Assembly (NCBI GenBank): GCA_937121175.1
Contig: CAKZKD010000005.1
Coordinates: 124,001 to 188,000, forward strand
Direction: 5' to 3'
DNA: 64,000 nt
From: an uncultured Flavobacteriales bacterium
Lineage (GTDB): Bacteria > Bacteroidota > Bacteroidia > Flavobacteriales_G > Salibacteraceae
Under the pieces are notes generated by a model that saw nothing but the letters and a program-made list of their open reading frames with translations, had not been told where the DNA came from and ran no database searches. Below are positions 5,107 to 9,659 of the stretch, one piece after another (the first letter of the stretch is position 1; every line of letters begins with the position of its first letter). The position numbers and the translations under genes were made by a program.

Positions 5107-5179
<73 letters not shown>

Positions 5180-5185
5180 CAAGAA

Positions 5186-5205
5186 GAGGCTGCTTAGGCA
5201 GCCTC
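5186..5205 (+). other. perfect hairpin between two tRNA genes
   Basis: GAGGCTGC and GCAGCCTC form an 8-bp perfect stem with a TTAG loop, seven bases after tRNA-Gly. No long T run follows (GAATGTTTTG), so it may be an attenuating terminator or a processing element in a joint tRNA precursor. Confidence 0.6.
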
Positions 5206-5253
5206 GAATGTTTTGCTAAATAAGCGAAATAGATTTACTCAAGACATCACCAC

Positions 5254-5338
5254 GCCCGGGTGGTGGAATTGGTAGACACGCGGGACTTAAAATCCCGTGG
5301 CCATTGCGGCCGTGCCGGTTCGATCCCGGCTCCGGGTA
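5254..5338 (+). tRNA. tRNA-Leu (anticodon UAA)
   Basis: An 85-base class II tRNA with a long variable arm. The anticodon stem CGGGA/TCCCG encloses CTTAAAA, giving anticodon TAA. The T arm has GGTTCGATCCC and the discriminator is A. The acceptor stem closes with two G-U pairs. CCA is not encoded. It is probably cotranscribed with tRNA-Gly. Confidence 0.96.
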
Positions 5339-5341
5339 CTT

Positions 5342-5374
5342 AAAACCTCTCATGAAAATGGGAGGTTTTTTTTT
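5342..5374 (+). terminator. terminator after tRNA-Leu
   Basis: An AAACCTC arm pairs with GAGGTTT around a loop of about 12 bases, followed by nine T. It ends the tRNA transcript just after 5338 and separates it from dinB. Confidence 0.75.
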
Positions 5375-5438
5375 GACTCTATGACTCCCAAAAACAAAGC
5401 CCAAATCTTATCAACAACCCACTCAACCAAAAATTATT

Positions 5439-5480
5439 ATGTCTAAATTATCATCCAAAATATGATGATAATATCGACAT
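5439..5480 (+). promoter_or_regulatory. two-tier palindrome, candidate operator of the dinB-dnaE cassette
   Basis: The inner arms ATTATCATC (5447-5455) and GATGATAAT (5464-5472) are a perfect 9-bp inverted repeat with an 8-base spacer. The outer arms ATGTC (5439-5443) and GACAT (5476-5480) are a second 5-bp inverted repeat with the same centre, each separated from the inner arm by 3 bases. The dyad ends three bases before the dinB ATG at 5484, so a bound repressor would block transcription, or an RNA hairpin would block translation. No typical TAnnTTTG promoter is visible here. It is not the E. coli (CTGT-N8-ACAG) or Bacillus LexA box. Confidence 0.6.
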
Positions 5481-5483
5481 TTA

Positions 5484-6692
5484 ATGAAATCTATTCTACA
5501 CCTTGATTTAGACAGCTTTTTTGTTTCCTGCGAGCGTATGCTCGATAATAGCTTGTATGACAAACCTGTACTTATTGGCGGCACATCGAACCGCGGAGTA
5601 GTTGCTTCTTGTAGTTACGAAGCACGAGCTTTTGGCATTCACTCGGCTATGCCCATGCAAATGGCCAAGCAGCTTTGCCCACATGCAGTCATTATTAGAG
5701 GCAACAGCAGCACCTACAGCAAATACTCTGATGTGGTTACCGATATCATTAAAGAAAGTAGCCCGCAATTCGAAAAATCTTCTATCGATGAATTTTACGT
5801 AGATACTACTGGAATGGATAAATTCTTTGGTACTTACTTGTGGGCAAAAGAACTTCGACAGCGTATAATGAAAGAAAGTGGCCTACCGATTTCTTTTGGA
5901 CTTTCTACCGGAAAAACCACGGCTAAAATTGGCACTAACGAAGCCAAGCCCAACAATCATATTCAAGTACCCTACGGAGAAGAAAAAGCTTTTATGGCTC
6001 CACTAGCCATTCGAAAAATGCCCATGGTTGGCGAAAAAACCAGTTTAAAGTTGCAGCAAATGGGCATTCAGAAAATAAAAACTGTACAAGACATGCCTTG
6101 CGAACTTATGGAACGTGTACTGGGTAAAAATGGAATTTCGCTCTGGAAAAAAGCACAGGGAATTGACAACTCCCCCATTATTACTTACCACGAACGAAAG
6201 TCCATTTCTATAGAGCGTACGTTTGAAAAAGACACTACCGATGTCATTAAACTAAAGAGCATTATTACCGCCATGGCTGAAAATCTTGCTTACCAACTTA
6301 GGAACGGCAATAAATTAACGGCCTGTGTTACCCTAAAAATTCGCTATTCCGATTTTACTACCGTAACACGTCAGTTGCACATTCCCTACACTTCGGTTGA
6401 CCATAAATTAATTAAGGTTGTGCAAGGGTTATTTAAAGTTTTGTACTCGCGTCGTATGCTCATCCGACTCATTGGAGTGCGCTACAGTAAGTTGGTTGGT
6501 GGCGGTTATCAAATCAACTTATTTGAAGACAGCGAAGAATTAGTGAGGCTATACCAAGCCATGGACAAAATGCGAAATCGTTATGGGCAAGATGCAGTAA
6601 AGCGCGCGGTTGCTATGGGTTCAAAAGGCATTGGGAGAAGCAATCCGTTTAATGGGCAACCGAACGTTATTCCAGCGCATAGAAGAGCATAA
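5484..6692 (+). CDS. dinB: Y-family DNA polymerase (DinB / Pol IV type)
   Basis: 402 residues. The palm has the metal ligand HLDLDSFF (Asp8, and Asp10 in the motif) and the second catalytic pair in SSIDEFYVD (Asp102-Glu103). CSYEARAFGI.SAMPM is the Y-family finger motif. The little-finger domain follows, and QINLF at 343-347 fits the beta-clamp binding consensus QLxLF. It should perform error-prone translesion synthesis. The next gene, a DnaE-type polymerase, starts 9 bases after the stop, so the two are almost certainly cotranscribed. The preceding 42-base dyad suggests tight control. All catalytic residues are present, so unlike ImuB proteins it is predicted to be active. Whether it is orthologous to classic DinB or a cassette-specific paralogue needs a tree. 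Confidence 0.93.
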   Translation: MKSILHLDLDSFFVSCERMLDNSLYDKPVLIGGTSNRGVVASCSYEARAFGIHSAMPMQMAKQLCPHAVIIRGNSSTYSKYSDVVTDIIKESSPQFEKSSIDEFYVDTTGMDKFFGTYLWAKELRQRIMKESGLPISFGLSTGKTTAKIGTNEAKPNNHIQVPYGEEKAFMAPLAIRKMPMVGEKTSLKLQQMGIQKIKTVQDMPCELMERVLGKNGISLWKKAQGIDNSPIITYHERKSISIERTFEKDTTDVIKLKSIITAMAENLAYQLRNGNKLTACVTLKIRYSDFTTVTRQLHIPYTSVDHKLIKVVQGLFKVLYSRRMLIRLIGVRYSKLVGGGYQINLFEDSEELVRLYQAMDKMRNRYGQDAVKRAVAMGSKGIGRSNPFNGQPNVIPAHRRA

Positions 6693-6701
6693 GCCAACCA
6701 A

Positions 6702-9659
6702 ATGCTACTAAATTGTCATAGTTATTATAGCCTGAATTACGGTTGTCTTTCGGTTGAAGAGGTACTGCAAACCGTAAAGGATTTAGGATACTCCGAGTTT
6801 ACCGTTACCGACATTAATAATACTTCCGAAACGTTTCGTTTTTTGATGCGTGCAGAAGAGTATAACCTAAAGGTAAATATTGGAATTGATTTTAGGAACG
6901 GCATTCAGCAACAATACATAGGTATTGCTAAAAACAAGCGCGGATTCTTTGAACTCAACGAACACTTGTCTCATCATCAAGAAAAAAAAGAGTCCATACC
7001 CCCTATTGCACCACAGTTTAATCATGCGTACATCATCTACCCATCCGAGCTTGCACCTCATCCTATTTTTTTAAAGCCGAATGAGTTTATTGGTATCAGT
7101 CCAGCCGATTTAAAAAACACGACCAAGCAAAAAGAATGGAAACATTACCAAGACAAATTGGTGATCCTGAGCACCTCAACTTTCAGACATAAAAGAGACT
7201 ACAACACTCATCGATTGCTGCGTGCTATTGGAGAAAACACCTTGCTGAGTAAACTCCCAAAAATCAGGCAAGCCAATTCAGAAAACACCTATCGGAGTCG
7301 AGCAGAAATAGAGGAACTCTATAGTCAATATCCCAAAATATTGCACAACACCAAAGAGCTACAAAAAAGCTGTAAGGTCAACTATAATTTTAAACGCCCA
7401 AAAAACAAATTGTGCTTCACCAGTAACCAAGAAGAAGACATTAAACTACTCACCAAATTGAGCCATGATGGGTTAAAGTACCGCTACAAACAAGTAAACG
7501 AAACCATTTTAGCACGGCTCGACAACGAACTGAAGCTGATTGAACAATGTGGGTTTTGCGCCTATTTTCTCATCAATTGGGATTTGGTACAATACGCACA
7601 GAGCAAAGGATATTGCCACGTAGGCAGAGGTAGTGGTGCCAATAGCTTGGTTGCTTACTTACTGCGCATAACCAATGTTGACCCCATAGATTTAGACCTT
7701 TACTTTGAACGATTTATAAATCCATATCGGAATTCTCCACCTGATTTTGATGTAGATTTTTCGTGGACCGACCGCGACGACATTACCCATTATCTGTTTG
7801 ATAAATACGGTTGGGATAAAGTAGTTCTTTTAGGCTCATACGTTACTTTTCAGCGCAAGGCGGTGGTTCGAGAACTGGGTAAAGTGTTTGGTTTACCAGC
7901 CGAAGAAATAAAAAGTCTTCAGCGTTCAGGTATCCCAAAAGATGAGTACAGCGCGCTAATTATACGCTATAGTGAATACATTGCTGGTTTTCCGAGTCAC
8001 CTGAGCATTCACGCCAGTGGTATTCTAATTTCTGAAGAACCTATTCATTATTACTCCTCCACTTTTTTGCCTCCAAAAAACTTTCCGACCACACACTTCG
8101 ATATGCAAATAGCCGAAGACATTGGATTGCACAAATACGATATTCTGAGTCAGCGAGGATTGGGTAAAATTTCGGATGCTGTTGCTCTGGTGAAAGAAAA
8201 CAGAAGCGTAAGTATTGACATAAATGCCATTGAAAAAATAAAACAAGACCAACGGGTAAAGAGGTTGCTACGCGAGGGTGACCTTACGGGGTGTTTTTAT
8301 GTAGAATCACCGGCCATGCGTATGCTTATGACTAAACTAAAAGCCGAAGATTACACACGACTTGTAGCGGCAAGCTCTATCATTCGGCCTGGAGTATCGA
8401 AGAGTGGCATGATGCGCGAATACATTCTCCGATTTCAAAGTGTTGAACGTAGAAAACAAGCCCAAAAAGCATTGCCCGAACTCTACAAAATACTCGAAGA
8501 AACGTACGGTGTAATGGTTTACCAAGAGGATGTAATAAAGGTAGCACACTTGTTCGCCGAACTTACCTTGGCAGAGGCCGATATACTGCGGAGAGGTATG
8601 TCTTGGAAGTTTAGAGAACGAACAGAATTTTCGCAAGTGGAGCAGCGGTTTTTTGATAATTGCTACCAAAAAGGCTACGCCGAAAAAACGGTAAAAGAAA
8701 TCTGGTATCAGATCGAAAGTTTTGCCAACTATGCTTTCTCCAAAGGGCATTCAGCCAGCTACGCCGTAGAGAGTTTTCAGGCATTATACATACACGCCTA
8801 CTACCCTATTGAATACCTCACGGCTACGCTAAATAATGGCGGTGGTTTTTACTCGCGTGAGGTATATGTTCACACCGCAAAAATGAAAGGAGCAACCATA
8901 GCCCTACCATGTGTGAATACCAGTAAAAGTTTGGCTAAAATAATAGGCGATACCATTCACCTTGGCCTCAGTTTTATTCGAGGTGGGTTTGAGCGCGAAA
9001 ATGTGTTTGCAATCCTAAAAGAACGCCAACAAAACGGGCCGTACTTATCGTTCCGAAATTTTGTGGAGCGCCTACCTCGAATTTCATTGGAACAAACGAT
9101 TATCCTAATTAGAACGGGATGTTTTAGGCATTTTGAAAAAAACAAAAAGAAACTGATGTGGGACGCACATTTCTTGCTATCAGAAGAACCATCGACTACT
9201 CTAGAAAAAATAAACCTATTTCAGATTGAGCCAAAAACATGGAAACTACCCGAATTGGTACACACCCAACTGGAAGATGCCTACGACGAAATAGAATACC
9301 TCGGTTTTCCGGTGAGTATTAGTCCGTTTGAAATGCTAGAAAAACCCAAAAAGCTAACTCCATTTTATGCATCAGATTTACGTAAAAATGTGGGTAAGGT
9401 AGTTTCTATTGCAGGGTACAAAGTAAACTCTCGGTCGGTTAGAGCCAGTAATAAACAAGCCATGCAATTCGGCACGTTTGTGGACCAAAAAGGCCACTGG
9501 ATTGATACAGTAATTTTTCCGAATGTATATAAACGGCACAACTACATTGCCCCGGGCTGCCATATCATTACCGGCAAGGTTGGCGAAGAATTCGGGCATC
9601 TTAGTTTAGAGGTACATCAGTTGGAGCGATTGGAGAATATGAATTTGAGGGAGGGATAA
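6702..9659 (+). CDS. DnaE-type DNA polymerase III alpha subunit (error-prone DnaE2/ImuC-like)
   Basis: 985 residues, shorter than replicative DnaE (about 1150-1450). The C-family palm is intact: GRGSGANSLVAYLL at 308-321, PDFDVDF with Asp350 and Asp352, and a third Asp480 in GLHKYDILSQRGLG. The N-terminal PHP domain is degenerate: the usual HxHSxYS reads NCHSYYS and the TDHN motif reads TDIN, so metal ligands are lost. A helix-hairpin-helix region and a C-terminal OB-like domain (from about 895) follow. KINLFQ at 836-841, between these two domains, could be a weak clamp motif. The short length and pairing with DinB point to a translesion polymerase rather than the replicase. ImuA and LexA are not next to it. 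Confidence 0.9.
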   Translation: MLLNCHSYYSLNYGCLSVEEVLQTVKDLGYSEFTVTDINNTSETFRFLMRAEEYNLKVNIGIDFRNGIQQQYIGIAKNKRGFFELNEHLSHHQEKKESIPPIAPQFNHAYIIYPSELAPHPIFLKPNEFIGISPADLKNTTKQKEWKHYQDKLVILSTSTFRHKRDYNTHRLLRAIGENTLLSKLPKIRQANSENTYRSRAEIEELYSQYPKILHNTKELQKSCKVNYNFKRPKNKLCFTSNQEEDIKLLTKLSHDGLKYRYKQVNETILARLDNELKLIEQCGFCAYFLINWDLVQYAQSKGYCHVGRGSGANSLVAYLLRITNVDPIDLDLYFERFINPYRNSPPDFDVDFSWTDRDDITHYLFDKYGWDKVVLLGSYVTFQRKAVVRELGKVFGLPAEEIKSLQRSGIPKDEYSALIIRYSEYIAGFPSHLSIHASGILISEEPIHYYSSTFLPPKNFPTTHFDMQIAEDIGLHKYDILSQRGLGKISDAVALVKENRSVSIDINAIEKIKQDQRVKRLLREGDLTGCFYVESPAMRMLMTKLKAEDYTRLVAASSIIRPGVSKSGMMREYILRFQSVERRKQAQKALPELYKILEETYGVMVYQEDVIKVAHLFAELTLAEADILRRGMSWKFRERTEFSQVEQRFFDNCYQKGYAEKTVKEIWYQIESFANYAFSKGHSASYAVESFQALYIHAYYPIEYLTATLNNGGGFYSREVYVHTAKMKGATIALPCVNTSKSLAKIIGDTIHLGLSFIRGGFERENVFAILKERQQNGPYLSFRNFVERLPRISLEQTIILIRTGCFRHFEKNKKKLMWDAHFLLSEEPSTTLEKINLFQIEPKTWKLPELVHTQLEDAYDEIEYLGFPVSISPFEMLEKPKKLTPFYASDLRKNVGKVVSIAGYKVNSRSVRASNKQAMQFGTFVDQKGHWIDTVIFPNVYKRHNYIAPGCHIITGKVGEEFGHLSLEVHQLERLENMNLREG

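Follow-up and report, generated by a model that had tools for sequence, protein, structure and literature searches.

The symmetrical sequence immediately upstream of the dinB-dnaE polymerase pair in this member of the Flavobacteriales most likely represents two adjacent 17-bp operators of a Bacteroidota LexA-like DNA-damage repressor. From comparison with related genomes, we consider it highly probable that this tandem operator is bound by two dimers of the Bacteroidetes 'non-canonical LexA' and controls dinB-dnaE. The window, the whole 64-kb stretch of DNA analysed here, contains the following features in the region concerned.

5342..5376, + strand: terminator-like hairpin with a T run, 3' of tRNA-Leu, setting the tRNA genes apart from the promoter region of dinB (sequence and repeat finder).
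5439..5480, no strand: the whole dyad, as first described by the sequence-only reading; 15/17 pairs match (sequence and repeat finder).
5440..5456, no strand: predicted operator site 1, TGTCTA-AATTA-TCATCC (TGTCTAAATTATCATCC), with half-sites TGTCTA and, as reverse complement, GGATGA (alignment with 16 relatives and half-site model).
5457..5462, no strand: 6-bp spacer, constant in length in relatives.
5463..5479, no strand: predicted operator site 2, TGATGA-TAATA-TCGACA (TGATGATAATATCGACA), with half-sites TGATGA and, as reverse complement, TGTCGA (alignment and half-site model).
5484..6692, + strand: dinB, Y-family DNA polymerase IV of 402 aa (PF00817, PF11799), proposed regulated gene.
6702..9659, + strand: dnaE, DNA polymerase III alpha-type polymerase of 985 aa (PF07733, PF17657), proposed regulated gene.

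The dyad itself is real and its coordinates are correct. Re-read from the window, positions 5439-5480 carry the letters ATGTC-taa-ATTATCATC-CAAAATAT-GATGATAAT-atc-GACAT, as the sequence-only reading had given them, and the 3-base gap that it placed between dyad and start codon is present as TTA, with the dinB ATG following at 5484. The repeat finder describes an inverted repeat with 17-nt arms, 8 nt between them and 88% complementarity. While the dyad stood as described, its earlier count of 14 pairs over 42 bases did not, 15 of 17 pairs being observed because one pair within the 3-base offset matches too. The best other 17-8-17 placement in the window reaches 12 matches, 20 shuffled windows contained none with at least 15 matches in this geometry, and the inner dyad occurs only once in the 3.73-Mb genome. 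The downstream genes had been named correctly as a dinB-dnaE pair, the polymerase domains listed above being found in both products, and by position dnaE would belong to the same operon as dinB. Upstream of the dyad lie mutS, tRNA-Gly, tRNA-Leu and the terminator-like hairpin, and the interval 5377-5483 must therefore contain its own promoter. The tRNA-Gly(GCC) and tRNA-Leu(TAA) genes and the hairpin that follows them occupy window positions 5107-5376 between mutS and dinB. A standard TAnnTTTG promoter, reported earlier as missing, is indeed absent in both directions. In a test for a canonical LexA regulon, the E. coli-type box CTGT-N8-ACAG had no occurrence in 5377-5483 (by reading), in agreement with the previous statement that the dyad matches neither the E. 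coli nor the Bacillus LexA box, and the sole S24 protein of the genome has a CI-type HTH, not the winged helix of LexA.

Resolved into two sites, the element follows the consensus TGWYNA-N5-TNRWCA in a 17-6-17 layout with centres 23 bp apart. Three of the four half-sites in this genome fit TGWYNA (TGTCTA, TGATGA and TGTCGA), the remaining one, GGATGA, being off by one base. Local palindromy of the window's own two sites is poor, amounting to 2/6 and 4/6 pairs. A plain tandem-local-palindrome score misplaces several relatives and also the window, the latter because its local symmetry is weak, and a half-site model trained without the genus was used instead. Across the 63,961 window positions and five shuffles that were scored, this model ranks 5440-5479 first at 23.3 bits, with the next position reaching 12.3 bits and the best of the five shuffles 11.2 bits. 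Site 2 (5463-5479) is the top-scoring single site of the window. The exact pattern GTCNA-N5-TNGAC proved too strict, matching at three loci only.

Conservation was followed through dinB, orthologues of which are present in 40/60 related genomes and were also taken from 80 named genome contigs. The resulting alignment comprises 17 sequences, this genome and 16 relatives from several Bacteroidota orders, with part of the sites chosen by eye before profile building. The 17-6-17 element is located upstream of dinB in the 17 aligned sequences, in most cases with a divergently oriented HTH-S24 gene on its other side, and its 23-bp spacing is invariant across the set. In three congeners and a sister genus, the bases preceding dinB approximate TGTCTANATTA....TTGACGATTATTTCGACA, a 40-bp element of the same length as TGTCTAAATTATCATCCAAAATATGATGATAATATCGACA here, and a divergent gene encoding HTH and S24 domains is found on its far side in all four. 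The two Arthrospiribacter sites, TGTTTAAATTATAAACA and TGTTAAAATTATTAACA, are both perfect palindromes except for their central bases; those of Labilibaculum are TGACTAAATTATAGTCA and TGACGAAAATATCGACA. The sequence-only reading had proposed that relatives be searched upstream of dinB for the dyad and a co-occurring regulator; the element is kept there and an HTH-S24 repressor gene is co-located. A tandem site at L172:955-994 in Algoriphagus sp. Ww129 precedes a second HTH-S24 repressor gene, suggesting cross-regulation between paralogues.

A 40-bp profile, R1, was built from the aligned element and searched beyond its training set. Outside that set, R1 matches occur in the dinB/repressor intergenic region of genomes G016 (E 8e-5) and G058 (E 1e-3) and, in G018, next to the gene for the repressor (E 4e-3). 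A further match, found in one genome, G016, precedes a bcp-recA pair (E 6e-3). Where dnaE lies apart from dinB, it has its own copy of the element upstream, as observed in seven genomes (G049 and G062 to G067), at a distance of at most about 0.2 kb in six of them and about 0.7 kb in G067. The R1 profile had no match in several genomes that encode a related repressor, and the motif therefore keeps changing. In the genome under study, the dinB copy is the sole strong match (E 4e-7, the next being 0.06), and its regulon therefore looks very small as judged by this profile. Weak matches in this and related genomes with E above 0.01 (L123-L130 and L135) lie within or beside unrelated genes and were rejected as chance.

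This genome encodes one S24 protein, of 245 residues, from a gene at G000:C5:206,223-206,960 on the minus strand, outside the window and 77 kb from dinB. It contains HTH_3 (PF01381, E 2.7e-10) and Peptidase_S24 (PF00717, E 1.2e-7) domains, an Ala122-Gly123 cleavage pair and a Ser160/Lys199 dyad, the Ser and Lys being invariant in 21 aligned proteins, and its AlphaFold model (mean pLDDT 79) matches LexA and the lambda/186 repressors. In the phylogenetic tree, the protein is orthologous to the divergent repressor of the congeners (support 95/91) and sits on a longer branch, and repressors associated with TGWYNA sites fall outside the branch carrying CTAA sites. Repressors of Cyclobacteriaceae and Spirosoma (L098, L104, L108, L110 and L111) have Ala-Ser in place of the Ala-Gly cleavage pair while keeping the Ser and Lys of the dyad. 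The earlier proposal that a dedicated repressor controls mutagenic synthesis is thus well supported comparatively, the conserved element tracking dinB, dnaE and a CI-type HTH-S24 repressor. recA is also present in this genome.

Repressor and dinB genes stand back to back in the congeners but are not adjacent here. The repressor gene is instead situated behind a kdtA-like gene and crcB, near a desaturase gene that in congener G002 adjoins the repressor-dinB pair. On the simplest reading of these gene orders, dinB-dnaE apparently moved next to mutS and the two tRNA genes and carried the operator along. The region around the repressor gene, C5:203,000-214,000, was searched and yielded no tandem operator. 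The congeners have a repressor promoter, TTG-N19-TAnnTTTG, that overlaps with site 1 of the shared operator; in this genome, the old repressor promoter on the opposite strand of the element is no longer recognisable. The repressor gene follows the kdtA-like gene and crcB without a gap (L113:3224-5365, G000:C5) and is therefore probably read from an unrelated promoter, autoregulation having probably been lost here.

The shared centre about which the sequence-only reading arranged all arms is the better axis in this genome taken alone, where its 15/17 pairs exceed the local symmetry of either site. This, together with the constant 23-bp spacing in the aligned set, speaks for one large operator, in which a repressor tetramer or two dimers need all four arms about a common centre. 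Across the relatives with this genome left out, however, symmetry is higher about the two local axes (0.79 and 0.73) than about the shared centre (0.61), against an all-axis average of 0.34; within the 40-mer, the two strongest axes lie at positions 9 and 32, with the shared centre in third place. Nor does the shared centre need a separate cause, because two like palindromic sites in tandem automatically make a larger dyad, and the published relatives bind single half-site-N5-half-site palindromes according to the main text of PMC8565304. We therefore regard a single large operator as unlikely; a tetramer formed by two dimers on the two sites is plausible. The other structure proposed earlier, an RNA hairpin in the dinB leader that either masks the start codon or serves as a regulatory structure, draws on the stable folding of the window sequence (-13.8 kcal/mol, z -4.0) and is, in our judgement, highly improbable. 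Two congeners and Labilibaculum yield weak local hairpins only (z -1.1, -0.4 and -1.0), pairing of the inner arms is kept in 66% of cells among the relatives compared with 83% for the two local palindromes, and at dnaE, as well as in some relatives, a distance of 15-160 bp or more separates the element from the start codon. With congeners devoid of a single hairpin and copies before dnaE and bcp-recA at varying start-codon distances, the RNA hairpin was abandoned.

Assignment of the two sites to the S24 repressor has also to be weighed against the possibility that the regulator is unrelated, such as an NtrC-type activator using tandem TGTC-N9-GACA dyads. Such a dyad precedes an NtrC-type regulator gene in two genomes, and thus shape alone does not identify the regulator. 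These dyads, at L142:1501-1540 (G017) and L147:1501-1539 (G006) in genomes of the same family, share the 17-6-17 tandem arrangement, lie between a gene for an NtrC-type response regulator and a divergent HlyD-type efflux gene, and are probably operators of a different regulator with like geometry. An NtrC-type operator is nevertheless very unlikely upstream of dinB, where the 3 bases separating the dyad from the start codon leave no room for a sigma-54 promoter; elsewhere, the element accompanies the S24 repressor gene, dinB, dnaE and bcp-recA. We attach similarly little weight to a chance or decaying palindrome, functionless here since the repressor gene parted from dinB. Erosion of local symmetry relative to the congeners and the unrecognisable opposite-strand promoter are in keeping with decay, but the element is the top-scoring window position under a model trained on other genera, its outer half-sites have stayed intact, and the genome still encodes the repressor, catalytic residues included.

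The tandem operator favoured here most closely resembles the Bacteroidetes non-canonical LexA regulons, with which it shares a CI-type HTH and S24 repressor, a 5-base spacer and the dinB-dnaE target. According to the main text of PMC8565304, such HTH and S24 proteins act as SOS repressors in Bacteroidetes, including of dinB, and respond to mitomycin C; family members bind the single palindromes mentioned above and have dinB-dnaE under their control, and two sites per promoter are common in their regulons. Motif discovery in that 2021 study returned, per its main text, only two motifs, GGA-N5-TCC and CTAA-N5-TTAG; the study reports none of these regulators for Bacteroidales and describes those of Cytophagaceae as unassignable. 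In contrast to the CTAA or GGA half-sites of those regulons, the half-sites here are TGWYNA, not described in the main text of PMC8565304 (supplement aside), and occur as a fixed 17-6-17 pair. The same source reports a diverged LexA site in E. anophelis, TTAC-AAATT-GTAA, to which binding was demonstrated; like the present element, it is a diverged palindrome located between genes for a repressor and an error-prone polymerase, with 5 bases separating its half-sites, but its half-site differs and it is presented as a single palindrome. GGA-N5-TCC, CTAA-N5-TTAG and TTAC-N5-GTAA were all absent from the 400 bp upstream of dinB in this genome, while GGA-N5-TCC and CTAA-N5-TTAG were both recovered at dinB of other relatives. 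Since diverged motifs have already been described in the published family (PMC8565304, main text), the absence of the published motifs rules out the motif classes known so far but not membership of the family itself. At the CTAA-N5-TTAG loci L075, L083, L092 and L099, TGCTAA-N5-TTAGCA is followed 23 bp on by a weaker palindrome (TACTAA...). Such pairs at some CTAA loci suggest that the double-site 17-6-17 layout may predate both motifs.

Canonical LexA of E. coli and Bacillus is likewise a self-cleaving S24 repressor acting over an error-prone polymerase, with a matching C-terminal domain fold. It differs in its N-terminal winged helix, a CI/Cro-type HTH being present here, and the promoter lacks the canonical box. 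The lambda and P22 CI/C2 repressors have a related HTH domain and an S24 domain, and their tandem adjacent operators are spaced about two helical turns apart. The gene described here is, unlike theirs, chromosomal and would control repair polymerases.

Combined, these comparisons are consistent with a mechanism in which two CI-like HTH and S24 repressor dimers would occupy the two 17-bp sites, centred 23 bp apart, and, as conservation and co-location suggest, block transcription of dinB-dnaE. The constant spacing invites the guess that the sites are bound cooperatively. Upon DNA damage, RecA filaments would promote self-cleavage of the repressor at Ala122-Gly123 via the Ser160-Lys199 dyad and, on the basis of the conserved residues and the published family, both polymerases would then be made.

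In our view, the element belongs to a known system, in which it forms a diverged motif class: the repressor family has been described before, but the operator sequence and fixed two-site layout are not among the main-text motifs of PMC8565304 (supplement aside). With slightly more belief than doubt, we propose it as an undescribed third class, a double operator with TGWYNA-N5-TNRWCA present twice in a 17-6-17 layout, which extends across Flavobacteriales, Marinilabiliales and Cytophagales and follows dinB and dnaE separately once they have parted. In the present genome, it would have persisted after its target was relocated and the repressor lost its autoregulation, while the symmetry of its arms about the shared centre increased. 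With a third motif defined, damage-inducible mutagenesis would become predictable in Marinilabiliales, Cyclobacteriaceae and similar groups. Such a motif would also provide a clean case of LexA-type motifs changing under a fixed two-site layout, and one of an operator that stays with its target genes when these become separated from the gene for the repressor.
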